DNA of 64,000 nt from Pseudomonas kilonensis. GTDB taxonomy: Bacteria > Pseudomonadota > Gammaproteobacteria > Pseudomonadales > Pseudomonadaceae. Positions 5,994-63,856 of the stretch are shown here, in pieces. Where the stretch lies: contig NZ_LHVH01000005.1 in assembly GCF_001269885.1 (NCBI RefSeq), positions 106,895 to 170,894 on the forward strand. Direction: 5' to 3'. Numbering within the stretch: position 1 is the stretch's first letter; each line of letters starts with the position of its first letter. Position numbers and translations under genes: made by a program. Under the pieces are notes generated by a model. The model worked only from the letters and a program-made list of their open reading frames with translations, did no database searches and had not been told where the DNA came from.

Positions 5994-6310
5994 TCAGGCC
6001 TGACAGCCCGGATGTTGTCGATCGAGTGCATATCCATTGCTGCGGTAACGGCGGCTTATGGTTCCGCTCTTACAGCGGGTCACTTTTGAAGAGCGCAAAA
6101 GTAACCAAAACGCTCTTGCCCCACCACTCTGCACCTCGCCTAGGCTCGGTGTGCCCTCACTCCGGCATTGCTCCGTGGGCCCGCCGCGAAGGGCCATCCA
6201 TGGCCCAGCGCGGCTATCCCGGCATCCATGCCGGGATGCCCACTCCACAATGCCTGCGTTCGGCCATCGTGGTTAACGGGGCGCCGAAATCAACGTCCAC
6301 CGCGAGGCGG
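5994..6310. repeat. Dispersed Pseudomonas intergenic element (non-coding)
   Basis: About 315 bases directly after the LysM gene. They contain self-complementary blocks such as GGCATCCATGCCGGGATGCC near 6221-6240 and a segment around 6057-6260 that I recall as a widespread intergenic repeat in P. fluorescens genomes, often miscalled as small proteins because several frames stay open. No ribosome binding site or recognisable protein supports a gene. It abuts the 88-bp tandem array. Confidence 0.45.
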
Positions 6311-8325: not shown

Positions 8326-9149
8326 CATTTCCTCATTCGCTGATGGCCCCGGTGGTCGAGCTGGCGCTCCAGGCCGGCGAGGCAATCCTGCCGTTCTGGC
8401 GCGCCAACGTGCAGGTCAACCACAAGGCCGACGAGTCGCCGGTGACGGCCGCAGACATGGCCGCTCATGATGTGATCGTGGCCGGGCTGACGGCACTGGC
8501 CCCGGATATTCCGATCCTCTCCGAAGAAGACGCCGATATTGCCCAAAGCGTGCGCGCCGGCTGGCATCGCTGGTGGTTGGTGGACCCGTTGGATGGCACC
8601 AAGGAATTCATTTCCGGCAGCGAGGAGTTCACCGTCAACATCGCGTTGGTGGAGCAGGGCCGTGTGGTGTTCGGCGTGGTATCGATGCCCACCAATGGGC
8701 GCTTTTACGTCGGCGGCGCAGGGCTGGGTGCCTGGCGTGGCGACAAGGGCGGCGTGCCTTTGCCTATCGCGGTTCGTGACGTCCTGGCCCCGGGTGAAGC
8801 TTTTACCGTGGTCGCCAGCCGTCGGCACACCAGCCCGGAGCAGGAGCGCCTGCTGAATGGCCTGAGCGGGAGCCTGGGTGAGCTGCAACTGACCAGTATT
8901 GGCAGTTCGTTGAAGTTTTGCCTGGTGGCCGAAGGCGCGGCGGATTGCTATCCACGACTGGCGCCGACCTCCCAATGGGACACCGCTGCCGCCCAGGGGG
9001 TATTGGAAGGCGCGGGAGGCGAGGTGTTGGACTTGAGCGGCGAACCGTTCTGCTATCCACCGCGTGAGTCGCTGTTGAATACGTCGTTTCTGGCGTTGCC
9101 GGCGAAAGCGGCTTGGCGTGCAAAGTTGTTGGAGCTTGCTCGCTCTTAA
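8322..9149 (+). CDS. cysQ: 3'(2'),5'-bisphosphate nucleotidase CysQ
   Basis: A 275-residue inositol-monophosphatase-superfamily enzyme that removes the 3'-phosphate of PAP/PAPS formed during sulfate assimilation and acyl-carrier-protein charging. The metal-binding motifs are ILSEEDA (about 65-71) and WLVDPLDGTKEF (about 85-96, with Asp88 and Asp91), and the C-terminal SQWDTAAAQGVLEGAGG motif is present. It overlaps nudE by 4 bp. A REPIN follows the stop. Confidence 0.93.
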   Translation: MTFPHSLMAPVVELALQAGEAILPFWRANVQVNHKADESPVTAADMAAHDVIVAGLTALAPDIPILSEEDADIAQSVRAGWHRWWLVDPLDGTKEFISGSEEFTVNIALVEQGRVVFGVVSMPTNGRFYVGGAGLGAWRGDKGGVPLPIAVRDVLAPGEAFTVVASRRHTSPEQERLLNGLSGSLGELQLTSIGSSLKFCLVAEGAADCYPRLAPTSQWDTAAAQGVLEGAGGEVLDLSGEPFCYPPRESLLNTSFLALPAKAAWRAKLLELARS

Positions 9150-9179
9150 GCCTGGCTCGATCCTTTGTGGCGAGGGGAT

Positions 9180-9268
9180 TGTGGGAGCAAAGCTTGCTCG
9201 CGATACAGGCGCCTCGATCTCTGAAAGACCCCAGCGCATCCATCGCGGGCAAGCCTTGCTCCCACACA
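9180..9268. repeat. REPIN after cysQ
   Basis: Inverted REP pair: TGTGGGAGCAAAGCTTGCTC from 9180 and the complementary AAGCCTTGCTCCCACAC ending near 9268. It lies between the convergent cysQ and thioesterase genes and may protect or terminate both transcripts. Confidence 0.9.
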
Positions 9269-9299
9269 GCGATACCTCGCCACAGGGGCCGGCGGTGTT

Positions 9300-9755
9300 T
9301 CAGCGATGCAACACGTACTGCCCCTCGAACTGCACCGCCACGTCCTCGCTGCCGGTATTCATCACCCGCGTCTGCAACGCCAGCCGGGCCCGTCCGTAAC
9401 GCCGGTAGGTGGCCAGGAAGCGCTTCCAGAGCTTTTCCTCGGGTGCTTGGCAAACCACAGTCGCGTCGCGGGTCACTGGCAGTGGATAGCTGATCTGTCC
9501 TTCCTGAATCACGATATGCCCGTCTTCGATGCCTTCCTCGCGCAGGGCCAGGTGCAACCAGCCCCAGCCACCGAGCACCGCGCCGCAATACAGGCTGCCA
9601 CCGAACATGGTGCTCTTGTGATTGACGTTGGCCGCAAGCGGCAAAGACAGACGCAGTTGCCGGGCCTGCCAATCGAGCACCTTGAGGCCCATGTCCCGGG
9701 TCAAGGGGATGTCGTGGTGCAGGATCGATTCCAGGTAACGACTGTCGCGGTTCAT
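9300..9755 (-). CDS. YiiD C-terminal-type thioesterase (hotdog)
   Basis: A 151-residue protein of the putative-thioesterase family matching the C-terminal domain of YiiD. The conserved segment NVNHKSTMFGGSLYCGAVLG carries the helix-forming SxFGGS signature, and later blocks (ISYPLPVTRDATVVCQAP) fit the hotdog sheet. ATG 9755 (MNRDSRYLESILHHD) is chosen as start; longer in-frame versions lack a better site. The substrate is unknown. It lies 37 bp from the dctD stop, downstream of dctBD on the same strand, so it could be read from that transcript. Confidence 0.85.
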   Translation of the reverse strand: MNRDSRYLESILHHDIPLTRDMGLKVLDWQARQLRLSLPLAANVNHKSTMFGGSLYCGAVLGGWGWLHLALREEGIEDGHIVIQEGQISYPLPVTRDATVVCQAPEEKLWKRFLATYRRYGRARLALQTRVMNTGSEDVAVQFEGQYVLHR

Positions 9756-27741: not shown

Positions 27742-28152
27742 ATGGCGACTTCCTCCATCACGCTCAACGCACAGCAACAATTGGACTCCCCGGACGCGGG
27801 TCGAGTCGCGTTGAAGTTTTTCTTCAACCTCATGGCGCTCTGGGGCTGCAGCGTCGAACAGCAGCGCACATTGCTGGGCAAGGTGGGAAACACGACCTTC
27901 TACAAATACAAACAGCTGCCGGAAAACGTGAAGTTGCCTCGCGATACGCTGGAGCGCATTTCCTACCTCATGGGTATCCACAAGGCGCTGAGCATTATCT
28001 TCAGCAATAGCCGGGACCGTGCTTATCAATGGGTCAGCAGTCCGAACACCGCGGCACCGTTCAACGGCCAGTCGGCGCTGTCCTACATGCTGACCGGACG
28101 AGTGGTGGACATCGCCGATGTGCGGCGATACCTCGACGGAGTGCGCGGTTAA
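27742..28152 (+). CDS. Xre/MbcA/ParS-type antitoxin of a RES toxin
   Basis: A 136-residue protein. The N-terminal half is a degenerate helix-turn-helix (LMALWGCSVEQQRTLLGKVG, NTTFYKYKQLPENV), and the C-terminal half matches the DUF2384/MbcA-ParS-Xre antitoxin region that caps RES toxins (LERISYLMGIHKALSIIF, YQWVSSPNTAAPFNGQSAL). CAAAGGAG at 27725 gives a good ribosome site. The stop overlaps the toxin start (TAATG), the usual coupling for RES-Xre pairs. It should both neutralise the toxin and repress the promoter. Confidence 0.88.
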   Translation: MATSSITLNAQQQLDSPDAGRVALKFFFNLMALWGCSVEQQRTLLGKVGNTTFYKYKQLPENVKLPRDTLERISYLMGIHKALSIIFSNSRDRAYQWVSSPNTAAPFNGQSALSYMLTGRVVDIADVRRYLDGVRG

Positions 28153-28829
28153 TGGTGCCACCACTGGCGGACCCGCAATGGAAACGGGCCTATCGGATCG
28201 TCAACAGCAGCTTCCCGCCGATTTCGCTGTTTGAAGACGTACTCGACCCCGAAGACCTGCCCACGGCCTACGCCCTGGAAGCGCTGACCAACGATCGGCT
28301 GATGGAACAAGCCGGCGTGCTGTCCCGGGTCCGCCCCGAGGATCGCATTTCCGGGCCCGGCTCCTCTCCGGTGATGGCGGCGTTTACCCACATCGGCAAA
28401 AGCAGCCGCTTCAGCGATGGCACCTTCGGCGTCTACTACGCCGCCAGCAGCCAGGAAGCCGCCATCGCCGAGACCTGCTACCACCAGGCGCGATTTCTTG
28501 GCGCGACCAACGAGCCAGACCTGGAGTTGACCATGCGCACCTACGTCAACAAGGTCGTCAAACCTCTGCACGACATCCGCCACGACTACCCCCACCTCCA
28601 CAACCCGGACCCTACCGCCTACGGCCCGTCCCAAGTGTTTGCCCGGCAGCTGCGTGAAACCCTGTCGTGGGGGCTGCTGTACAACAGCGTCCGCCTGCCC
28701 GGCCACGAATGCGTGGCCGCGTTTCGCCCGCCGGCGGTTTCGATTCCGACGCAGGGCAAGCACATTCGGTACGTCTGGAGTGCCCAGAAGCGGGAGATTT
28801 CGTTTGTGTTTGAGGTGAGTCAGGTGTGA
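28152..28829 (+). CDS. RES-domain toxin (NAD+-degrading type)
   Basis: A 225-residue RES-family toxin; characterised members kill or arrest cells by consuming NAD+. The active-site residues are visible as the early Arg in WKRAYRIVNSSFPP, the Tyr/Glu pair in GVYYAASSQEAAIAET, and the late Ser in LYNSVRLPGHECVAAFRPP. The start ATG 28152 shares a base with the antitoxin stop. A 34-bp perfect palindrome follows 20 bp after the stop. Confidence 0.88.
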   Translation: MVPPLADPQWKRAYRIVNSSFPPISLFEDVLDPEDLPTAYALEALTNDRLMEQAGVLSRVRPEDRISGPGSSPVMAAFTHIGKSSRFSDGTFGVYYAASSQEAAIAETCYHQARFLGATNEPDLELTMRTYVNKVVKPLHDIRHDYPHLHNPDPTAYGPSQVFARQLRETLSWGLLYNSVRLPGHECVAAFRPPAVSIPTQGKHIRYVWSAQKREISFVFEVSQV

Positions 28830-28848
28830 GTCAGGCTTTTAGGGTGTT

Positions 28849-28882
28849 TTATGGCTGGGCAATAATTATTGCCCAGCCATAA
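28849..28882. terminator. 34-bp perfect palindrome after the RES toxin
   Basis: Each half is TTATGGCTGGGCAATAA or its exact complement, with no spacer (28849-28865 and 28866-28882). A second dyad, TTTCAATA / TATTGAAA, follows at 28884-28908. The first ends in AATTTTC, so it can act as a terminator; perfection over 34 bp is unusual. Confidence 0.75.
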
Positions 28883-28928
28883 TTTTCAATAATTCGTGAG
28901 TATTGAAAGTAGAGGCTGCTGTGCAGCC

Positions 28929-28956
28929 CAGCGGGAGCAAGCTCCCTCGCCACAAA
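28929..28956. repeat. Single REP-like element (CGGGAGCAAGCTCCCTCGCCA)
   Basis: The sequence GCGGGAGCAAGCTCCCTCGC at about 28930-28949 matches one arm of the nested repeat at 23904-24065. It lies before the chemoreceptor stop. Confidence 0.7.
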
Positions 28957-28968
28957 AGCGCCGATTGA

Positions 28969-30576
28969 TCAAATCTTGAACTGCTGCACCGAAGCCTGCA
29001 TCGACCCCGCCGCATTGTTCAATTGATCCGCCGTTTGCGTCAGGGTGTGAATCGAGCGGGTGTTCTCACGGGACTGCTCGGCAATCGACTCCACCCGCTG
29101 GGCCATCTCATCACTGGCCTTGGATTGCTCGGCAATGGTCTGGGAAATTTCCTCCACCACTTCGGCCGCATGCCGGGCACCGGTGCGGATTTCGCTGATG
29201 GACACCCCGGCCTGCTGGGCCAGGTCGACGCCTTCGTCCACGCGGCTGACGCAAGCCTGCATGTTCGCCACCGCGTCCCGTGCGCTGGACTGGATGCGCT
29301 CGATCATTGCGGTGATTTCCTGAGTGGACTGGGTGGTGCGCGCCGCCAGGTTGCGCACCTCGTCGGCCACCACCGCAAAACCACGCCCCGCCTCACCGGC
29401 ACGGGCGGCTTCGATAGCGGCGTTGAGCGCCAGCAAGTTGGTTTGTTCGGCGATGCTCTTGATCACCTGGATGATGGAATGAATGTCCTCGGACGACGCG
29501 TCCAGCGCCGTGATCTTGCTGGACGACTGGTTGACCACCTCGGCGATCCGGTTCATGCCTTCCACCACGCCGAGAATCACCTGGCCGCCGCTGCTCGCCA
29601 AATGCTCGGACTGTGCTGAAATCGTCCGGGCGCTGTCGGCGTGCTGATGGATCTGGCTGATATTCGCCATCATCTGCTCCATGCTCGCCGCCATGCTGGT
29701 CGCGCTCTGGGCCTGCTGGTCGGCGCTGGACACAATCTGCCGCGCCGTATCGCCCAAATCCCGGGACGTGCCGTGCAACTCATCGCTCTGGCCGCGGATC
29801 GTAGCGATCATCTGCCGCAGATTGGTCTGCATCTGCTCGATCACACCTTGCAACTGACCCAGCTCATCCTTGCTCTGAGCCCCCATCGAGCGCTGCAGAT
29901 CCCCTTGGGAAATCGCCTGGGTATTGAGGATGATCTTGTTCAGCGGCGTAAGCACCGCCTTGAGCAGGCTCCACGATAACAGCGCCAGCGCCACGCAGGT
30001 GGCCAGTAACGTCACGATCAGCCAGCGCTCCGAGGTGTGAATGCTTCGGTCCTGATGCTCGCGCGATGACTGCGCCTGGTTCTCGATCAGTTCGCTCACC
30101 GCCTCGTTGCGCTCCTCCAACGCCGAGAACGCCCCATCGAACTCCGCCCGCAACGCCTGGCCATCCTGGGCACCGTTCAGGGCCTTGCCGATGACTTGCT
30201 TGGCTTTATCGATGTAGGTTTCGACCTGCGGCTTGAGCTCGCCAATCGCCGTGGCGACATCCCCAGGCAACTTGGCCTCGGCATTTTCGGCGATGACCTT
30301 GCGCATCCGCTGCGTATGTTCATCGAATGCCTCCAGCACCTCCTTCGCCCCCTGGGCATCCCCCGGCTTCACCAGCAGAGCGGCGAGCACATCGGCACGA
30401 ATGGCGTCGTGCATCATGTCCGCCTCCATGTGCTTGCGCATGGCCGAAATACTGGTCTCGTTCTGCACCAGGGCCTCGGTCATGGAGTGATAACCCCACA
30501 ACCCGATACCGCCGAGCAACAGCGCAAAAGAAAGACTGACCAACCCCGAGCCTATGACCTTGGTGCGGATCTTCAT
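28969..30576 (-). CDS. Methyl-accepting chemotaxis protein
   Basis: A 535-residue chemoreceptor. The first transmembrane helix is at about 8-30, the periplasmic ligand domain of four-helix-bundle (4HB_MCP) type at about 31-185, the second transmembrane helix at about 186-208, and a HAMP domain follows ([27 protein letters not shown]). The signalling domain ends with the hairpin tip [35 protein letters not shown], and the two methylation helices flank it. No CheR-docking pentapeptide is seen at the C-terminus (SVQQFKI). The ligand is unknown. It is monocistronic. Confidence 0.92.
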
Positions 30577-30732
30577 TGCTTACTGCTCCTTGGAGCGGGG
30601 GGAATTCTGGGAAAGTGTAGTCGAGCGCCAGCCGAGCCTTGGGACAGGCCAAGCTCTTATCTGAGGCTATCGGCGGGGGAGTTGATTAGATGAATACGCC
30701 GCAAATTGTTTGGGCCAGGGACAGGGTGAACC

Positions 30733-30832
30733 TGTGGCGAGGGCGCTTGCTCCCGCTGGGCTGCGAAGCAGCCCTTCTTTAACTGCCCCGGCAGACTAAA
30801 CCCAATGCTGCCCCGCTCAGTGAGCAGCATTG
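30733..30832. repeat. REP-like element and hairpin
   Basis: GTGGCGAGGGCGCTTGCTCC at about 30732-30751 is a REP of the class seen at 23904. It is followed by a hairpin, CAATGCTGC at 30803-30811 with GCAGCATTG at 30824-30832, just after the stop of the DUF3077 gene, which may be its terminator. Confidence 0.6.
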
Positions 30833-30844
30833 CGCCTGCGGTTC

Positions 30845-31123
30845 TTAAGCAGGATTACTCCCCGGCGCCTCCAGCACCTTCACCACATCATCGATGACGG
30901 CCTTGCTCATATCCTGTAGATAACACGACGCCCAGGCATATCGATCCGTGCTGCGAATCATCGCCGCGTCCTCGGCCAGGACCTTGGCGACGTGGAGCAG
31001 GTCGGAGGCGTGGGACAGGGCTTCGCCGATGGGAATGCCGCTGTTGACGCGGAATAGCGGGCGGTCGGAGTGGTAGCAGAAGGGGGTTAGGCCTGGGGTT
31101 TTGAGGTCTTGCGGATTTGGCAT
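30845..31123 (-). CDS. DUF3077 family protein
   Basis: A 92-residue soluble protein of the DUF3077 type common in Pseudomonas (TPFCYHSDRPLFRVNSGIPI GEALSHASDLLHVAKVLAED). Its function is unknown; the fold looks like a helical bundle after a short strand. ATG 31123 (MPNPQDLK) has AAGGAG at good spacing; longer frames run into the structured leader. The leader upstream (31149-31360) is highly folded and probably regulatory. Confidence 0.75.
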   Translation of the reverse strand: MPNPQDLKTPGLTPFCYHSDRPLFRVNSGIPIGEALSHASDLLHVAKVLAEDAAMIRSTDRYAWASCYLQDMSKAVIDDVVKVLEAPGSNPA

Positions 31124-31148
31124 TGTCTGGCTCCTTGACTTGAAAGAG

Positions 31149-31360
31149 CTGCCACCGACCTTCTCACAGGTTGGGGTGGCAGCCATGCGCGGGGTGAGAA
31201 TCCGGCAATCAAGGCAACCGGTAGACCCGAAGGTCTCCCACGCACAGCCGCCATAAAACGACATCGCAGACGAAAAAAAAACGCCGCGATGGGATTATGG
31301 GCGCTTTTGCGCCTTGATTGCTTCGGGTTCTCACGCCCGGTCGCTGAATTGGCAGCGACG
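31149..31360 (-). ncRNA. Large folded leader upstream of the DUF3077 gene (candidate structured RNA)
   Basis: Three nested or serial stems are visible. GCTGCCACC (31149-31157) pairs with GGTGGCAGC (31175-31183). A long arm, GGGTGAGAATCCGGCAATCA then AGGC (31192-31215), pairs with GCCTTGATTGC then GGGTTCTCACGCCC (31311-31338), with CTT left as a bulge. GTCGCTG pairs with CAGCGAC at 31340-31359. Inside the long arm is a small hairpin AGACC-CGAA-GGTCT near 31223-31236. I recall near-identical blocks upstream of DUF3077 genes elsewhere in P. fluorescens. It could be a cis-regulatory leader or a mobile DNA element; the sequence alone does not decide. Confidence 0.5.
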
Positions 31361-31511
31361 TTCAGAGAGTAGCGGGCGATTGGGTAGGGTGCAATCGTGG
31401 CGCGATGCTGGCGGGTGAGGTTTTGGTATTTTTATGGATAGGCAATAATTTGCGTCGCTGTCGAAATAGTCGGCTGCCGACGCGCGAGACAAGCGACTGG
31501 AGGAAATTCCA
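31361..31511. other. Unassigned intergenic DNA
   Basis: No gene, repeat or recognisable remnant was found here. It carries the start of the AT-richer island. Confidence 0.4.
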
Positions 31512-31709
31512 ATGGATGATGGATGCGAGCAATTTCAGCAGGACGTGTTCGGCCCTGAACATCAAATGACAGAGCCAGAAGCCTTGTCAAACCGGGGCCA
31601 GTTGCCCTCAGAGTCGGTCCTAATGAGAGATGATGTAGCCTTGATCCATAAGGTGCGAGAGCGGCTTGCGGCCCCACAACGAGTTAAAGTTTCTATGAAT
31701 GATCTATAG
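31512..31709 (+). CDS. Small unrecognised reading frame, 65 aa
   Basis: A 65-residue frame (MDDGCEQFQQDVFGPEHQMT ... KVSMNDL), acidic, with no membrane segment. The only support is a good ribosome site, GGAGG at 31499-31503, eight bases before the ATG. Protein similarity is not recognised and the surroundings look like decayed mobile DNA, so it may be a remnant read by chance. Confidence 0.25.
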   Translation: MDDGCEQFQQDVFGPEHQMTEPEALSNRGQLPSESVLMRDDVALIHKVRERLAAPQRVKVSMNDL

Positions 31710-31836
31710 CCCTGAATTCGGTGGGCAGGAATGACACAGTCTGTACGGACCGGACACAGTCGGAAGGGTACCTTCCAATGAAATTTTGAGGGTAGCTGTC
31801 CCGGTAGTTGATTTCAACTGGTGACCCTCTTCGTAA

Positions 31837-32748
31837 TCACCAGCCTTTGGCGTCAGTCTTCCATAGCTCAGGAAAGCCCATGCGCTGGAAGTGCGCGACG
31901 CCATACCTTTCCTCCATTGACGCCAGCCTCGCTTTGAAGGTGCCGTTAAATCCTATCGAGCTCAGCAAGACATGAATCACTGTAAGCGAGGCGTAGACCG
32001 TCTTGTTATCGGTGAACTTGATGTCTTTGAGCTTTAGGTTGGTGGGAGAAACCCCAAGTTTAACGTCGATGAACCGGTCGTGATGAGCAGCCATATTCCG
32101 AAGCACGGTTAGTGCATGTAGCCAGCTTTCGAACACTTCCACCTGTGTGATACCGAATTTTGACGAGATGACTCTGCGGTCAACCGGGTCTCTGAGCATT
32201 GCGAAAATTTTCGACCAGGTACCCAATGTCACGCATTCGCTCATCGCCCAGCTGGGCGGCAGGTACGGGTCGTCGTAGCTCTCGTAGTAGGCTTTTATAT
32301 AAAGCCGGGATGAGGCCCGTTCCACCTCTCCCTCGATTTTCGACAACATTTGCCCGATGCCAGCGCGTCCTTTTGGGGCAAATATGTCCGTTTTCAGGTA
32401 CCAGTGCGGGGAGTACTTGAGGCTCAGCAGGTTACAGATCACGGTGCGAACGGCGACCTCCAGCCTTTCCACGGACTCCATGATAATGGCGCGAATTTCT
32501 CGATCGCACTCGTAACGCTGACAGATAAGCTCAAACGTTGTATTAGGCAGGAAGTTTTTGGTGGCGGGGTCTTGGAGCTGATACCAATAGCCCTTCAGTC
32601 GGAAATGCCCCACGTACGAGATGTATTTCAGGGCAAGGTCGTCGTCGTCAACGATCAATCCTTGCGTCTTCAGCTTGGCGAGCAGTGCCTGGGGTGTGAA
32701 AGCGGTTTTCGCAAATGGGAGCTTTGCTGCGGTAGCCTGCTTGGCCAT
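31837..32748 (-). CDS. Abi_2 family abortive-infection protein (AbiF/AbiD-type, HEPN)
   Basis: A 303-residue Abi_2 protein. The N-terminal block YISYVGHFRLKGYWYQLQD and the following REIRAIIMESVERLEVAVRT and SPHWYLKTD segments are typical of AbiD/AbiF. The HEPN nuclease motif R-N-x3-H is intact as Arg217-Asn218...His222 in TVLRNMAAHHDRF. Such proteins cleave RNA to abort phage infection. ATG 32748 has GGAG at good spacing; a TTG two codons earlier is less likely. Immediately upstream on the same strand lies a compact structured RNA ending in a terminator, so translation depends on read-through, as in type III toxin-antitoxin loci. Confidence 0.9.
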   Translation of the reverse strand: MAKQATAAKLPFAKTAFTPQALLAKLKTQGLIVDDDDLALKYISYVGHFRLKGYWYQLQDPATKNFLPNTTFELICQRYECDREIRAIIMESVERLEVAVRTVICNLLSLKYSPHWYLKTDIFAPKGRAGIGQMLSKIEGEVERASSRLYIKAYYESYDDPYLPPSWAMSECVTLGTWSKIFAMLRDPVDRRVISSKFGITQVEVFESWLHALTVLRNMAAHHDRFIDVKLGVSPTNLKLKDIKFTDNKTVYASLTVIHVLLSSIGFNGTFKARLASMEERYGVAHFQRMGFPELWKTDAKGW

Positions 32749-32763
32749 GGTCAAACTCCAGGC

Positions 32764-32838
32764 AAAAAAAACTCGCCTTTTGCACGCCTGCTTTGGGGCA
32801 GGACCCTACCCGTTGGATAGGACGTGTGGCGAGTGTGT
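32764..32838 (-). ncRNA. Candidate AbiF-type structured small RNA upstream of the Abi_2 gene
   Basis: Read leftward, the RNA folds into a closed multibranch structure. The outer stem is ACUCGCC (32834-32828) with GGCGAGU (32777-32771). A second helix, CACG (32826-32823) with CGUG (32786-32783), encloses two hairpins: CCUAUCC/GGGUAGG with a 3-base loop (32821-32805) and CCUGC/GCAGG with a 6-base loop (32802-32787). Eight U follow the outer stem (32771-32764), making it an intrinsic terminator. A promoter fits exactly upstream. I recall a described structured RNA motif beside AbiF genes; membership was not checked. Confidence 0.7.
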
Positions 32839-32845
32839 TGAGTCA

Positions 32846-32874
32846 AGGTTATTCGTCTTTGACAGAGGGGTCAA
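32846..32874 (-). promoter_or_regulatory. Sigma-70 promoter for the small RNA / Abi_2 unit
   Basis: Leftward -35 TTGACC (32874-32869), a 17-base spacer and -10 TAACCT (32851-32846). The predicted start near 32839 coincides with the 5' base of the folded RNA. Confidence 0.65.
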
Positions 32875-32994
32875 TCACTTTGGTGGGATCTGACAATCGC
32901 TTTAGGGCAAAGCGACGTTCGGAACCTGTGACGGGTACTCTGCCCGCAAGGCGCCCAGCGGCGCTATGCGCAATGCTGTTCTCGTGCAAGACCA

Positions 32995-33010
32995 CTGTTT
33001 TCATATACAG
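32995..33010 (+). promoter_or_regulatory. LexA (SOS) box
   Basis: CTG-TTTTCATATA-CAG matches the CTG-N10-CAG LexA operator with an AT-rich core ending ATATA. It lies 12 bp before the start of the next gene, so LexA would block its transcription until DNA damage. Confidence 0.6.
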
Positions 33011-33022
33011 TTGTGATCCGTT

Positions 33023-33292
33023 ATGGCCCGTGATTTACCCCCATTCCGGCCTGTGACGAAGGCCGAACTGCGCTACATCTGGACCAATCATCCCGAGAAC
33101 CGACGATTGGTGCTCGAAATTGAGTGTTACAGTCGTGTGATCGCAGAAATTGACGTTTTGTACAAAACCACGCACCAAGCGTGGCGCTATCACTTAGGTG
33201 GCAACCTGACCGCCCTCCATCTCCTTCAGCAAATCATGACCGCAGAACGCCAGCGCTTACCTGCGGAGATCGTTGATGCGGATCAACCCTAA
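33023..33292 (+). CDS. Small hypothetical protein behind a LexA box, 89 aa
   Basis: An 89-residue soluble, mostly helical protein (MARDLPPFRPVTKAELRYIW ... HLLQQIMTAERQRLPAEI) with no recognised domain. The ATG at 33023 has no strong ribosome site and follows a LexA box by 12 bp, so the message may have a very short leader. Its stop overlaps the end of a convergent membrane-protein gene by 4 bp. SOS control suggests a role in damage or phage response; that is inference only. Confidence 0.55.
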   Translation: MARDLPPFRPVTKAELRYIWTNHPENRRLVLEIECYSRVIAEIDVLYKTTHQAWRYHLGGNLTALHLLQQIMTAERQRLPAEIVDADQP

Positions 33293-33918
33293 GACGAAGG
33301 GGGGGTATCAGTTTGAGTCAGGTGTTTTTTTATATTATCTGAAAGATGAGCGCTTCCCATTAGAAATAAGTTGTTTATAAGGTCTAGTGTGAAGTACATG
33401 GAGAGCCAAAAAGAAAACCAGCTAGCGAGTCTCAAATAGAGGTGGTCGATAAATATTTTCTGAAATATTCCAATCGCGATCGTTGCGGTTATTATAATTA
33501 AAGGAAGTGCCATTTCTGTGTTTAGCAATAGTACGGAGCCAGATTTGTTGTTCTCCTTGTTATAACCCTCGAAACCGTTCTGAAGGTCTTGAACAAATTT
33601 TCTATCCAGAGCGAATATTAGTGCATACACCCCGATTCCAAAGCCTAGGAGGTTAGGTAATATGCTAGTGGCTAGTTCGCCTGGGGTGACCTCTACCTTG
33701 TAAGAAAGGTATGAGCAAGGGAGGAGTGAGTTGATAAAGTCGGGCATTAGCAAGATGGCGACGCTAAGGCAGATAAAGAATGGGAAAAAATAAATTTTTA
33801 TCCATGCCAAGATCCCAGCAAACTGATCGTCAGCTTTAACGTCTCCATCGTAAGCGTAGGAGTTGAAAACCTTCAGTATTACTCCGATAATTGGGATTTT
33901 AGTAAGTAATCTAAACAT
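33289..33918 (-). CDS. Hypothetical membrane protein, third gene of an unknown operon
   Basis: A 209-residue protein with about four transmembrane helices (hydrophobic runs near residues 40-60, 85-105, 135-160 and 170-190) and a short polar C-terminal tail (SDNIKKHLTQTDTPPSS). No family is recognised. ATG 33918 has AGGAGA at an 8-base spacing and overlaps the preceding gene by 8 bp. Codon use is AT-rich compared with the flanking core genes, which suggests transfer. In a defence-type locus such a protein could be a membrane effector, but nothing in the sequence proves it. Confidence 0.6.
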   Translation of the reverse strand: MFRLLTKIPIIGVILKVFNSYAYDGDVKADDQFAGILAWIKIYFFPFFICLSVAILLMPDFINSLLPCSYLSYKVEVTPGELATSILPNLLGFGIGVYALIFALDRKFVQDLQNGFEGYNKENNKSGSVLLLNTEMALPLIIITATIAIGIFQKIFIDHLYLRLASWFSFWLSMYFTLDLINNLFLMGSAHLSDNIKKHLTQTDTPPSS

Positions 33919-34153
33919 TGCTGTTATCTCCTGTGTCGACTCCACCTATTCGACGAATCTCCACGATCACTCTGCGTCGCATCTCTGCAGGCTGTTCATC
34001 TTTCTTTTGTCTTAGCTTTATTTTTAGCGGATAGTTTGAAGAGGCATAGCGCATTAATTTGCCGCCAGCTTCAGTTAAGTAGGCTAGTGACGTTTGGCCA
34101 TATTCTACGGAGGCTTCTACAAGTTGCTTTAAAAAAGCAGGTAGCGTCGGCAT
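33911..34153 (-). CDS. Hypothetical small basic protein, second gene of the unknown operon
   Basis: An 80-residue protein (MPTLPAFLKQLVEASVEYGQ ... EIRRIGGVDTGDNSNV) with a basic middle (PLKIKLRQKKDEQ, AEMRRRVIVEIRR) and no signal or membrane helix. It overlaps the downstream membrane-protein gene by 8 bp and follows the first gene by 27 bp, which supports co-expression. No family is recognised; the ribosome site is weak. Confidence 0.5.
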   Translation of the reverse strand: MPTLPAFLKQLVEASVEYGQTSLAYLTEAGGKLMRYASSNYPLKIKLRQKKDEQPAEMRRRVIVEIRRIGGVDTGDNSNV

Positions 34154-34180
34154 CGCGGTATCTTTAGAACCGGTTGAGGC

Positions 34181-34813
34181 TTAAACTTTTAGATGGTGGA
34201 CGTTATTGTCCTTTAGCTCTTGTAGTTGACTGCCTAGTCTATGACCATTTGGAAATGTGAGAGTGGTCTTAACAGATTTATAGCCGGCGGCAGTATTAAA
34301 TATCTGTTCCAGCTTCGTGGGGTCTGAGATTAAGTTGATTTTGAGGATGTGATTGGGAAAAAGCGTGTCTGCGATTTTTCCGAAAATGCTTTCAAAGATA
34401 TTTATGCAGACGTCGGGTGAAGGGAGTTTTCCGGAAACTTCCTGAATTGCCAGTCTATGAGTTTGGAAGTCGAAGACATAGTCAAACGAATGTCTATTTG
34501 CTATCGGGAAGGTGCCTTTGGTTGCTGTGAATAATTTCGTGTTGGAGTACAGGTCCTCGATATCCTCGCCGAGGTTATATTTCAACCACTCTCCGTACGC
34601 ATGGTCATCGGTTGTGATTGTGCTTCGAGGTGCCATGTATGCATCGTTTAAAAGAGAATAAGAGATTGTATCAATCTGCTTTTTCTTGAAGGCGTCCACA
34701 GTTAAGTTATGTAGCCCGTCTAGAAGTCGTTTATAGCCGACTATGCCAACTTCTCTGATTTTAGTGGTGTCCGCTGGCAACAACTGAACGTTAAATACGA
34801 TGAATGACGCCAT
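34181..34813 (-). CDS. Hypothetical protein, first gene of the unknown operon (possibly DUF4747-like)
   Basis: A 210-residue soluble protein (MASFIVFNVQLLPADTTKIR ... QLQELKDNNVHHLKV). The FNVQLLP opening and the overall pattern remind me of DUF4747-type proteins, but this is a weak recollection. AAGGAAG lies at good spacing before the ATG at 34813. A 12-base G/C homopolymer sits 32-43 bases upstream of the start, in the presumed promoter or leader. AT-rich codon use marks it as acquired together with the next two genes. Confidence 0.55.
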   Translation of the reverse strand: MASFIVFNVQLLPADTTKIREVGIVGYKRLLDGLHNLTVDAFKKKQIDTISYSLLNDAYMAPRSTITTDDHAYGEWLKYNLGEDIEDLYSNTKLFTATKGTFPIANRHSFDYVFDFQTHRLAIQEVSGKLPSPDVCINIFESIFGKIADTLFPNHILKINLISDPTKLEQIFNTAAGYKSVKTTLTFPNGHRLGSQLQELKDNNVHHLKV

Positions 34814-34844
34814 TTGCTTCTTCCTTGATTAGCAGCTTGCTGCC

Positions 34845-34856
34845 GGGGGGGGGGGG
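34845..34856. repeat. Poly-G/C tract (12 bases) upstream of the unknown operon
   Basis: Twelve consecutive G on the + strand, poly-C in the leftward transcript, 32 bases before the ATG at 34813. Tracts of this length are prone to slipped-strand length changes. Confidence 0.9.
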
Positions 34857-35141
34857 TGGTGGCCAATTCGTATCGTACCAGATCAGTTCATGTGCAAGCC
34901 CGCTTTAGCCAAAAAGCCCCGCCACGCCTGTGGGCTAGATAGGTCTCAATTTCTGCACACCTGCACCCGTTCGCTAGCAGCACCCGGCTGGGCTTCTCCT
35001 GAGCAAATAGGATTAGAGAAAGCCCTACAAAACCCCGCACGTCCCACTGCTTTTTTCGAGCGGAGAAGAGTGCAATCCTGAGGTCATTTTTCAGGTGACC
35101 CATGGGAAACAGGTAATTTAGGTGTAGACAGGTTAGGAATC

Positions 35142-35172
<31 letters not shown>

Positions 35173-35600
35173 GTGCGATGCGGGTTTGAGCACTTACTTG
35201 GCAGCAGCTTTTTTGAGTAAGGAGGGGGAGTAATTTTTTTGCTAACTATCTGAATTATAAAAAATTATATTTTTGATTTCTGTCCTAGCTAAAAGGTAAT
35301 ATCATTACTATGTATATTACTAAAAACTTACCTAGCCAGATCCTCTACAAGCCTTGTCTTACCTGCCTTTCAGGAGGATAGAGGAAAAACTTACCAAAAT
35401 ACCATTTTCCCCGTGGGTCAACAGAAAACGGGCTCGGCTTTAAATGGAGGGTGGCAGCAGGCTCTTGCTTCTCCATCAGTTCTCCTGCGCTCTGCATCAG
35501 CCGAAACTGACACGAAACGCTCTCAGCGCACACTGACACTTCGGAACCCTGAAGTAGTGAAGCGGCTGGAGTGAAAGAAGCTGCCGGGAGAAGATCGAAG

Positions 35601-36485
35601 TTATAACACCGCCACTGAAAAGATTTTTCTCCTTAAAAAATTAGATATATACACAGACATAAAGGTACTTAGCATCATGCTTGCCATGCTAACCCACTTG
35701 TTAATATCTAAAATATCGATGAAGTAAGCAATACACATAGATACCCCGCCCATTGTAAGGAGGTAGGTGACGGCGGCGAACAAAAAAAGTAGGACTTTTG
35801 CAATAACTCCTGAGTGCCTTATGCAAGCCCAAATGGCCAGCATAGTTCCTACAAGTAATATATGGGTCACAGCCCAAGTGAGCCAAAACGGGATATGCGA
35901 AATAGGAAGTCTTGATGCCTTTGTCGACCTTTCAATCGGCGAAATAGCCACATAGAATCCAGAGCGAGGTTCAGGTTTAGCCTTCGTGATAGCTGGTAGA
36001 CCCACGATGCGGCTGCTGACGCCTGAAATCATTACCGGAGATCTAGAAAATATTTCAATGAAGAACCGGTCGCCTGGATTAAGCAGTAATGAAGAAACAG
36101 CTAAACCATTCTGAGTCTTCGACAATTTAACGTCTAGATTCGCTGGGGTTGAAAAAACAGTTTTGTAAGATAAGACGGACTCAGAGTTAGAAATATGAAT
36201 GGATATTGGGCTGTCGAAATCCTCTCGCTTTATTGGAAGCTTGCCAGTGTTTGCTATTGCCAAGGTCAAAAATGAGCCGGTGCTGACATCTATTCCTCCA
36301 TAAGAAATTTTGATGTCTGGCCAAGTGCGATCTAGAGAGTCTAGGTTGGTAAGCTCTCGCGTTGACAATACTTCGTAGCTAAGCTCCTTTTTATCGGAGA
36401 AATAAGCGCTCCAGTAGGGGCTAAAGATAAATAACGCTATCGGCAGTATGAAGGAGGCGAGGGCGCCGAGGATTTTGGACTTCAA
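35601..36485 (-). CDS. Hypothetical membrane protein with periplasmic beta domain (TTG start)
   Basis: A 294-residue protein with one N-terminal hydrophobic segment (LGALASFILPIALFIFSPYW, about 6-25), a polar domain of about 170 residues rich in beta-strand patterns, and three C-terminal transmembrane helices (about 200-285). The start is TTG at 36485, supported by AAGGAG seven bases upstream and no better in-frame ATG. No family is recognised. It is the outermost island gene before tRNA-Thr, with AT-rich codon use. Position near other defence-type genes hints at a related role without proof. Confidence 0.6.
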   Translation of the reverse strand: MKSKILGALASFILPIALFIFSPYWSAYFSDKKELSYEVLSTRELTNLDSLDRTWPDIKISYGGIDVSTGSFLTLAIANTGKLPIKREDFDSPISIHISNSESVLSYKTVFSTPANLDVKLSKTQNGLAVSSLLLNPGDRFFIEIFSRSPVMISGVSSRIVGLPAITKAKPEPRSGFYVAISPIERSTKASRLPISHIPFWLTWAVTHILLVGTMLAIWACIRHSGVIAKVLLFLFAAVTYLLTMGGVSMCIAYFIDILDINKWVSMASMMLSTFMSVYISNFLRRKIFSVAVL

Positions 36486-36617
36486 GCTGCGCTCCTTGCT
36501 GCGAGGCCGATAGAGAGTGGACGTCTGTAGCAGGCAGCAAGGAGATGGAGTGCTGCGGGAGGCTGTTCGACGAGCACCTGCTAGGGTGTTGTTACGTCAG
36601 TTGTTATGCCTAACGCA

Positions 36618-36654
36618 TAAACAAAGGGCCTGCATCGCTGCAAGCCCTTGTTTT
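36618..36654 (-). terminator. Terminator downstream of tRNA-Thr
   Basis: A dyad with AAGGGC and GCCCTT arms (AAAGGGCCTGCATC ... GCAAGCCCTTGTTTTG on the + strand) sits just past the tRNA 3' end and ends in an AT-rich run for the leftward transcript. Confidence 0.6.
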
Positions 36655-36657
36655 GTA

Positions 36658-36733
<76 letters not shown>

Positions 36734-36844
36734 GTGTGGGCGACGATTATAGCGATTGGGTGCGTTCTGTAAACCCCTGAATTCTGACTATTTTTGCACT
36801 ACCTATACTCAAGCGCGGTGCAGCAGGTTGCGCCGTTTGTTCGG

Positions 36845-37113
36845 GGCTCGTCAGGTGCGGCTGTTTTGCATGGCGTGGAGTTGGGCTTCGGCCTGTTCGG
36901 CGCGTTGCAGGGCGGCGCTGATCTGTTGGTCTGCGTCGTTGATGGGGCGGCTGAATTTGTGGCCTTTGCAGAGTTGGAAGCCGTCGAGGTTGCACGGGGG
37001 GGGATGTCGAAGGCGGGTTTGAAGGCCAGGTGTTCTTCGGCGAGGTAGTAGGTGTTGATGCCGCGCCACGGGCGTATGTCTTCGAAGTTTTGCGCGTAGG
37101 AAATGAACGTCAC
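36845..37113 (-). pseudogene. FkbM-type methyltransferase / glycan gene fragment with frameshift
   Basis: From a GTG at 37113 the leftward frame reads VTFISYAQNFEDIRPWRGIN, the N-terminal signature of FkbM-family methyltransferases associated with surface glycans (usually MTFISYAQNFEDVMLWRAL). At the 8-base C tract (36996-37003) the frame shifts, after which the continuing product is read as SAALQRAEQAEAQLHAMQNS followed by RT and a stop. The intact proteins continue for hundreds of residues, so this is a truncated, shifted remnant. No partner genes remain nearby. Confidence 0.6.
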
Positions 37114-63219: not shown

Positions 63220-63594
63220 ATGCCTCGGGTAATGGGCTCGTTGGCGATCGTCGGCGTGATGGTCGGGCTGATGATCGGACGCCTGACCACACCCGAACCG
63301 AGCGTGCTGCAGCAGGTCGAGGTGACCGACGGTGGCGTGGTGGCCTGGTTCAATAACGAACCCAAGTTGCACGGGGAAGTCATCGACGGCTCGGTGGCGT
63401 TGTTGTTCGAAGCAGAAGGTCGATCGCAGAACGGCCAGTTGAAGCTCAACGGCAAGGACGTGAACTGGCGGGTGCGTTTGAGTGACAAGGGGTTGTTGCT
63501 GACACTGGTGGCGGCGCGTCCGTTGCGCGGGGCGTGGACCGCCAGCGAGGTCGATGACCGCTGGCGGCTGGAGGTCCGTCTCCAGGAGCAATAA
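63220..63594 (+). CDS. Hypothetical membrane-anchored protein
   Basis: A 124-residue protein with an N-terminal helix (VMGSLAIVGVMVGLMIGRLT) and a C-terminal beta-rich domain (VVAWFNNEPKLHGEVIDGSV, NWRVRLSDKGLLLTLVAARP). No family is recognised. ATG 63220 is chosen because it leaves room for a divergent promoter with trmL; the alternative ATG 63154 would overlap the trmL start and has AAGGA 11 bases upstream. Confidence 0.55.
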   Translation: MPRVMGSLAIVGVMVGLMIGRLTTPEPSVLQQVEVTDGGVVAWFNNEPKLHGEVIDGSVALLFEAEGRSQNGQLKLNGKDVNWRVRLSDKGLLLTLVAARPLRGAWTASEVDDRWRLEVRLQEQ

Positions 63595-63598
63595 AAGA

Positions 63599-63784
63599 GG
63601 GAATCCCCGGCCTGCCTGTACCAAGGTCCCCAAAACGGGAGGGCTTACCGCGAAGGTCCAGCCCTGGTGTAAAGAAGGGAAACCTTGACCTGCCTGTATC
63701 AAGGCCCCCAAAACACTGGGCTCGATGAGCCCGGTATAAAATGGGGAATCCCCGGCCTGCCTGTACCAAGGTCCCCGAAACTGG
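63599..63784. repeat. Three imperfect tandem repeats
   Basis: The unit GGGAATCCCCGGCCTGCCTG, TACCAAGGTCCCCAAAAC occurs at about 63599-63636, 63678-63715 (AACCTTGACCTGCCTGTATC variant) and 63745-63782. Between copies lies a small hairpin (GGGCT ... AGCCC, as at 63719-63733) followed by GGTATAAA or GGTGTAAA. Confidence 0.8.
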
Positions 63785-63856
63785 GTAGTGATTGAGTTAT
63801 TGCAGGGGGCGTGCCAGTTTTAAATGGCTTGTCACAAAAAGACCGCTGGTGATGCG

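Follow-up and report, generated by a model that had tools for sequence, protein, structure and literature searches.

The locus described here raises the question of whether an Abi_2 gene of Pseudomonas kilonensis and the short structured RNA in front of it form one toxin-antitoxin module and, if so, what kind of antitoxin the RNA is. The AbiF-type module itself is of a known kind, and AbiF-RNA modules have been proposed as ancestors of Cas13. Of the RNAs in such modules, most of what is known comes from one short Rfam motif.

Anatomy of the locus and its protein

A sequence-only reading of the window (the whole stretch of 64,000 nucleotides that was analysed) had described a promoter TTGACC-17-TAACCT, a four-stem RNA with a 7-bp closing helix and eight U, and a Shine-Dalgarno sequence followed by an Abi_2 gene with an intact R-N-x3-H (Arg217, His222). 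All of these elements were found in their places on the minus strand of 31837–32874, with the promoter, kept in near relatives, at 32874–32846 and the RNA at 32839–32764. The features, with the grounds on which each was assigned, are as follows.

32846–32874, minus strand: sigma70-like promoter TTGACC-17-TAACCT (sequence and conservation in relatives)
32874–32869 and 32851–32846, minus strand: promoter boxes TTGACC and TAACCT, with a 17-base spacer (sequence)
32764–32839, minus strand: branched abiF-type RNA, 76 nt (energy z, conservation, compensatory changes, core common to other Abi_2 leader RNAs)
32828–32834, minus strand: 5′ side of the outer helix P1, 7 bp with 32777–32771 (one pair UA to CG on both sides in L065)
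32827, minus strand: single unpaired A at the junction of outer and inner stems, an abiF core feature (fold and comparison)
32823–32826, minus strand: 5′ side of the inner helix P2, partner 32786–32783 (never varies)
32805–32821, minus strand: apical hairpin P3, loop AAC (both-side changes: CG to UA in phage contig L066, CG to GC in L065)
32787–32802, minus strand: apical hairpin P4, the second inserted hairpin (both-side changes from a one-base register shift in L065)
32778–32782, minus strand: 3′ single-stranded bulge CAAAA, starting with CA as in the abiF core (sequence and comparison)
32764–32777, minus strand: intrinsic-terminator-like end, made of the 3′ side of the outer helix and eight T (sequence and fold)
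32771–32764, minus strand: the eight T that close the RNA (sequence)
32756–32759, minus strand: Shine-Dalgarno GGAG, 7 nt 5′ of the ATG (sequence)
31837–32748, minus strand: abi_2 gene for a 303-aa Abi_2/AbiD-F HEPN protein (ATG at 32748, stop at 31839–31837)

The order of the parts, judged by sequence, is that of AbiF/AbiFr modules, namely a promoter, a structured RNA upstream of the gene, and a predicted terminator between RNA and gene. The promoter score by itself is no proof, since its 8 of 12 letters were equalled or exceeded by 217 of 2000 random sequences; the promoter is credible because it is conserved in relatives, with TTGAC-17-TAnCCT at the same distance in L001–L006, L010 and L068. 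L007 has TTGACA-17-TAGGCT, and L065, L067 and L069 have a weaker promoter or another one.

The protein was assigned to Abi_2 by Pfam (PF07751, E 1.3e-46) and to AbiD by PADLOC (E 3.1e-60), and as in AbiF/AbiFr it combines an Abi_2/AbiD-F HEPN assignment with R-N-x3-H. The motif, RNMAAH, was confirmed with Arg217 and His222, and R217, N218 and H222 are invariant in 21 aligned Abi_2 proteins. A sequence comparison with PDB gave a single convincing relative, 8vz6, an Abi family protein (E 1.1e-36). An AlphaFold2 model built from the 21-row alignment (mean pLDDT 89.8) gave one Foldseek match against PDB at E ≤ 0.001, 8vz6_A ("PbAbiF dimer bound to ncRNA", E 2.3e-17, TM 0.85/0.86, 28% identity in the fold alignment), and matches PbAbiF over about its whole length. 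The abi_2 product is predicted to be a HEPN ribonuclease with its catalytic residues in place. In AbiFCd, substitutions at the corresponding R and H abolish toxicity, and a PbAbiF double mutant, R210A+H215A, is reportedly inactive (PMC12373285).

Signs of other system types were also sought. No repeat family of at least 20 nt, as in a ToxIN-type repeat antitoxin, lies at the locus; 28000–37000 holds four two-copy repeat families, all within 28992–29841. A ToxN fold was not found, the fold being that of PbAbiF with no other PDB match at E ≤ 0.001. The 303 residues contain one R-N-x3-H motif and not the two HEPN domains of Cas13, and in 28000–37000 no direct-repeat family of at least 20 nt has three copies within 400 bases, as a CRISPR array would.

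As for the neighbourhood, a C4 antisense RNA (31172–31258) and a c4-a1b1 target (31320–31372; minus strand) lie just downstream of abi_2 and adjoin a DUF3077 gene (30845–31264). C4 and/or a1b1 are also close to Abi_2 in L002, L010, L022, L028 and L037, and near the toxin-free RNA of L067, where a1b1 is under the gathering score; perhaps this is a shared cargo hotspot. Within 27742–28829, an Xre/MbcA/ParS-type antitoxin gene is followed by an open frame which resembles a RES toxin. Genes without a Pfam family over the cut-off occupy 33289–36485 (minus strand), between abi_2 and the tRNA gene at 36661–36733, and the gene at 34181–34813 fell narrowly below the DUF4747 cut-off. Other Rfam matches in the window were P34, NrsZ and TwoAYGGAY, at 805–1089, 63584–63787 and 6177–6241, respectively.

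The RNA, the abiF motif and the presence of the gene

Folding of the 76-nt RNA gave −27.4 kcal/mol, compared with −17.5 ± 3.2 in dinucleotide shuffles (z −3.1), and 1 of 200 shuffles folded as well; when promoter and leader are included, in a 120-nt stretch, the energy is unremarkable (z −0.8). From its 5′ end, the RNA runs through the outer 7-bp helix, the unpaired A, the 4-bp inner helix, two hairpins, the CAAAA bulge and the 3′ strand of the outer helix.

The sequence-only reading had proposed a search for the Rfam abiF motif, and this check failed. In the window, no abiF RNA was found above the gathering score (37 bits), and even at E = 10 the region 32500–33100 gave nothing relevant and no abiF match. 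The failure is best explained by the RNA being a branched variant of the motif, and the branched class matches no Rfam 15 family. The core architecture is present in it: the outer stem encloses an unpaired A, an inner stem with its loop and a 3′ bulge starting with CA, and U follow. All these elements are those of the Rfam abiF RNA (RF03085), but the apical loop of the latter is 11 nt long, where the window RNA carries an insert of ~37 nt with two hairpins.

A topology scan (outer 6-bp stem, single A, 3-bp inner stem, any loop, 4–7-nt 3′ bulge, outer stem) recovered the window RNA together with 7 of 25 other Pseudomonas Abi_2 loci, the seven being picked by eye from many matches. The compared loci were L012–L019 and L021–L037; the seven with core and U-rich tail, L012–L017 and L021, all have a bulge that starts with CA. 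L014 is an Rfam abiF match (16 of the 25 loci were scanned with Rfam), and L012, L013, L015 and L017 form a third RNA class with CTCGGG at the apical start. The first inserted hairpin keeps a C-AAC-G tip, which is also present in the canonical loop TCAACGA. We infer that the window RNA is probably an abiF core in which two hairpins replace the apical loop, its kinship with RF03085 being judged by architecture and short sequence features, through the topology scan and by eye, and not by a model score.

Scanning species genomes yielded seven loci, six of them in Pseudomonas and the other in a Nitrosospira MAG, and further loci came from a draw of 298 Pseudomonas genomes. In the aligned upstream DNA the RNA is near-invariant and the promoter conserved, and the flanks further out diverge. 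A covariance model of the branched RNA, made from 11 copies, gave strong matches (at least 76 bits) in 7 of 398 Pseudomonas genomes, including that of the window, and one match in the whole genome G000. In a class-wide draw, at which stricter filters lost weak matches, the strong match was limited to the window's own genome (1/369). The branched RNA had no match in the named phages and plasmids searched. Matches of 21–28 bits (13 among the 398 Pseudomonas and 6 among the 369 class-wide genomes) were set aside as short GC-rich hairpins; 16 of them span 29–34 nt, while L040, L045 and L057 span 70–112 nt, and in L040 and L057, as far as seen, the conserved letters are absent.

Compensatory stem changes among homologues, which the earlier reading had suggested looking for, did come to light, and a lack of stem conservation, which would have told against that reading, was not observed. 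A first alignment (11 rows, 10 distinct) had 97.8% of cells paired and no pair changed on both sides. In a second one of 14 rows, to which L065, L066, L067 and L068 were added and from which L006 was left out (its RNA is identical to that of L005), 97.7% of cells are paired and six pairs show a change on both sides, a number reached in 0 of 500 shuffles, which ignore relatedness, and compared with 0 to 2 pairs in slid controls. Three of the six are the P4 register shift in a single row, L065; of the three clean changes, two are in L065 (outer helix, UA to CG; P3, CG to GC) and one is in L066 (P3, CG to UA). The letters of loop and bulge are conserved too, beyond the stem.

With each genome counted once, the branched RNA stands with an open gene at eight loci (the window, L001, L002, L003, L005, L006, L010 and L065), with a broken gene at four (L004 with a stop at codon 232, L068 with a frameshift, L069 and L007 truncated), and with no gene at three (L067, L038 and L066). 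Gene fragments without the RNA were found twice, in L011, where the RNA is absent from the upstream alignment, and in G268, which has only a weak 25-bit model match elsewhere. Among the eight open genes of the branched clade none was without the RNA; seven of these loci comprise the window itself and those reached by way of the protein, and L065 cannot count as a test since it was found through the RNA. One of the eight may not be expressed, because L010 has ATA in the start position where others have ATG. The asymmetry between RNA and gene is as expected if losing the RNA first is harmful. In L067 (genome G754), the toxin-free RNA (8697–8769) lies directly 5′ of a SocA/Panacea antitoxin-domain gene (8896–9474), and a promoter of the usual kind is not recognisable.

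A scan of IMG/VR for the branched RNA gave three contigs, L065, L038 and L066. L065 has a complete module with an Abi_2 at 46% identity. The other two are P2-like, with a gpP-type terminase and portal in both, and no Abi_2 was found on these records of 36 kb (L038) and 33 kb (L066), which may be fragments. Identity between the two is 90% in the RNA, 62% in the promoter block and 54% in the stretch that separates the RNA from the next gene; upstream of the promoter their DNA is unrelated. Their promoters, read by eye, are TTACCG-17-TAACCT or TAATCT and lie at the usual distance, give or take one base; best-hexamer scoring of toxin-free copies was uninformative, and the −10 and −35 letters were read by eye. 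The toxin was probably lost in L066, since a 14-codon frame after the RNA resembles, by eye, the Abi_2 N-terminus. With a comparable stub in L038, it seems probable that both contigs lost the toxin gene.

The named phages closest to these two contigs are P2-like ones of Pseudomonas aeruginosa and Stenotrophomonas (~74% DNA identity), and their close relatives are Pseudomonas prophages, including one in a toxin-bearing strain. A terminase 99% identical in protein is found in genome G035 (Pseudomonas tehranensis), which bears an intact toxin module at 97%. The G035 prophage and L038 align on both sides of an unshared stretch, L038 1501–5417, which contains the RNA and reads from this alignment as a variable cargo slot. 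Beside the toxin-free RNA, in L038 3752–5367 and L066 7657–9272, are an IrrE/M78 metallopeptidase gene (assigned by Pfam for L038 and by alignment for L066) and a gene without a Pfam family.

A silencing RNA or a leader

The locus is very probably an AbiF-type module, in which the branched RNA would bind and silence the predicted HEPN ribonuclease. The layout like that of type III toxin-antitoxin loci, which the sequence-only reading had seen in it, gained support from the stems, the conserved promoter, the fold match to 8vz6 and the layout of RCd22/AbiFCd. PbAbiF binds its ncRNA in 8vz6 (Zilberzwige-Tal et al., Cell 2025, as cited in PMC12737573 and PMC12373285), and the window shares with it the HEPN Abi_2 fold (TM 0.85), the RNxxxH site and a partner ncRNA; it differs in that identity in the fold alignment is 28% and that the window RNA has two hairpins beyond the Rfam motif. 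RCd22/AbiFCd of C. difficile has the same layout of a promoter, a short structured RNA and a terminator with read-through into abiF, and there the RNA neutralises in cis, by premature termination, as well as in trans, by binding (PMC12373285). RCd22, however, has two RF03085 motifs per RNA, in contrast to one branched core in the window, and the host and phage context of the two loci differs.

Accordingly modelled on these relatives, transcription would start near 32839, and most transcripts would end after the U-tract and give free RNA, with rare read-through giving the Abi_2 mRNA; both outcomes were shown experimentally for RCd22/AbiFCd (PMC12373285). The RNA would then bind the homodimer and block its R-x4-H active site, as PbAbiF-ncRNA and AbiFCd suggest, and phage infection might upset the RNA supply, upon which the nuclease would be freed and the cell arrested. 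The 76-nt RNA is likely, from its sequence, to be antitoxin and transcription attenuator at once. The AbiFCd authors state that anti-phage activity remains hard to show (PMC12373285).

It is quite improbable that the RNA is a leader of abi_2 that acts as an attenuator only in cis, riboswitch-like or bound by a phage protein, and never exists as free RNA. A terminator does stand between promoter and gene, control by read-through was shown for the relative RCd22, and a phage protein is reported to act on the structured 5′ mRNA leader of AbiD1 of Lactococcus (PMC12373285); the anatomy of the window locus also allows such an AbiD1-like cis mechanism. Against it, the RNA is kept with a broken gene (L004, L068, L069, L007) and without an adjoining abi_2 (L067 and the phage contigs L038 and L066), where a pure attenuator would be expected to decay, and RCd22 works in trans (PMC12373285). 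Moreover, in L038 and L066 it is the RNA that stayed alike, and not the DNA after it or before the promoter. That the hairpin is an ordinary terminator and Abi_2 a stand-alone abortive infection protein, as the U-tract after the hairpin and the description of lactococcal AbiD/AbiF systems as single genes would allow, is very improbable, given that loop and bulge letters are conserved and not the stem alone, that the canonical abiF pattern with a permuted loop matches no viral contig against at least 120, and that 8vz6 is an AbiF bound to its ncRNA.

Toxin-free copies of the probable antitoxin RNA in phages

Beyond the branched class, the canonical abiF RNA was sought in viruses with the pattern CCGCCANGCCTCTN{6,28}GCNCANNNNGGCGG. 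At least 120 viral stretches matched, and a permuted control, with the loop start CTCT changed to TCTC and the stems unchanged, matched none. PF07751 was run on the whole records of 80 of the at least 120 matches, many of them fragments, and detected Abi_2 in 0 of 40 and 3 of 40, leaving 77 of 80 without it. With a home-made Abi_2 model, built from 33 mostly Pseudomonas sequences and liable to miss distant relatives, Abi_2 was found in 5 of 120 fetched stretches among the matches listed. Again among the matches listed, at least 1 kb follows the RNA in 99 of the 115 toxin-free stretches, and the inner-stem bases left free (N) in the pattern are Watson-Crick in 120/120 (115/115 toxin-free); taking one per contig cluster, 52 of 52 pair, with all four pair types, where 0.41 would be expected under independence. 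A tRNA gene lies within 2 kb in 11 of the 115 toxin-free stretches among the matches listed, and at such a number this proximity is a remark and not an argument.

In bacteria, RF03085 gave 32 matches in 26 of 369 class-wide genomes, and Abi_2 is next door in 21 of the 30 bacterial matches with a locus. This differs from the 5 of 120 viral stretches among the matches listed (Fisher p 3e-14) and from the 3 of 80 whole viral records, themselves 80 of at least 120 (p 1e-12), although the bacterial set was drawn by a covariance model and the viral set by a pattern, thus by different tools. Above the Rfam gathering score, 7 of 14 bacterial loci have Abi_2 next door, so that toxin-free copies are not unknown in bacterial genomes, and some of these may be prophages. 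On plasmid pT75-VIM (L233 3001–4035), an abiF RNA scores 36.7 against the gathering score of 37, and the Abi gene lies between DNA methyltransferase and restriction S-subunit genes.

Short blastn searches with three viral RNAs gave 10, 11 and 66 named phage records, partly overlapping, of which ten isolates were fetched. Rfam placed abiF above gathering in nine: the Aeromonas phages PZL-Ah8, T7-Ah, PZL-Ah152 and PT2, Salicola phage CGphi29, cyanophage S-CREM1, Acinetobacter phage Acj61, and the mycobacteriophages Thibault and Baka. None of these nine whole genomes contains Abi_2 (0/9). The tenth isolate, Rhizobium phage Pasto, was dropped, as Rfam gave no listing at E 0.05; Abi_2 is absent from it too. 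The four T7-like Aeromonas phages carry the RNA between their connector and scaffold genes. One of them has the outer stem CCCGCC/GGCGGG and the other three CCCGAC/GTCGGG, so that the change is compensated. The stems of Acj61 and Thibault differ again, and the apical sequence is almost invariant throughout; its letters, GCCTCTCAACGATGC, also occur in the toxin-linked bacterial RNAs L199 and L202 and stay while the stems change. The S-CREM1 RNA (52.2 bits in Rfam) is inside a tRNA array, and those of Thibault and Baka are near tRNA-Gly.

The third RNA class is found in viral records as well, and Abi_2 is absent in both records concerned, L070 and L071. One 36.7-kb viral contig (L071 and L072) holds two diverged third-class copies 8.8 kb apart, each behind TTGACG-17-TAGTCT or TACCCT as read by eye, and Abi_2 is absent from the record.

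It is somewhat more likely than not that the toxin-free copies of AbiF antitoxin RNA serve phages of many lineages as a natural decoy, which would flood the cell and keep the nuclease off. That these copies are instead relics of former complete modules, with no present function, is unlikely. The Abi_2-like frame in L066 and the stub in L038 fit such an origin, those two having probably lost the gene, as do the four bacterial loci of the clade at which the gene is broken and the RNA intact. However, a relic would hardly be expected to remain so alike in L038 and L066 beside diverged following DNA, to show in L066 a pair changed on both sides, to keep the unconstrained position paired in all toxin-free stretches and all contig clusters among the matches listed, or to sit, in four T7-like Aeromonas phages, at the same gene border with a stem change that is compensated.

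Rather unlikely, too, is that the phage copies serve other ends, such as forming transcript ends or RNase processing sites in phage operons. The RNA does lie between late genes in T7-like phages, and at least four T occur in the next eight bases in 98 of the 115 toxin-free viral copies among the matches listed. Yet a terminator needs no such loop, the letters of which are shared with toxin-linked bacterial RNAs and constant while stems change, and other copies have different surroundings, namely a cargo slot, a tRNA array or nearby tRNA genes.

The decoy reading has a precedent in pseudo-ToxI of phage PhiTE, likewise a phage RNA that imitates a type III antitoxin and allows escape from abortive infection (PMC3475682). 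Pseudo-ToxI, however, belongs to the ToxIN family, consists of repeats and became active after expansion under laboratory selection, whereas the abiF copies are structured, mostly single and found in wild phages, with a putative decoy role. An abiF sRNA had already been noted in the lytic phage S-CREM1; the accessible part of that paper gives the sRNA as one annotation, with no decoy role, and speaks of three bacteriophage genomes in Rfam (PMC9964418). In the literature searched, which leaves out bioRxiv and most subscription journals, we found no paper proposing AbiF antitoxin decoys.

The branched class, which the Rfam model misses, would make the antitoxin side of AbiF modules broader, and it offers a reason why other Abi_2 genes seem to be without an RNA. 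If the decoy reading is true, the branched antitoxin RNA of the host and the same toxin-free RNA in P2-like phages would be one arm of a race, and antitoxin RNA mimicry would be common among wild phages as a fixed counter-defence, and not just a laboratory curiosity.
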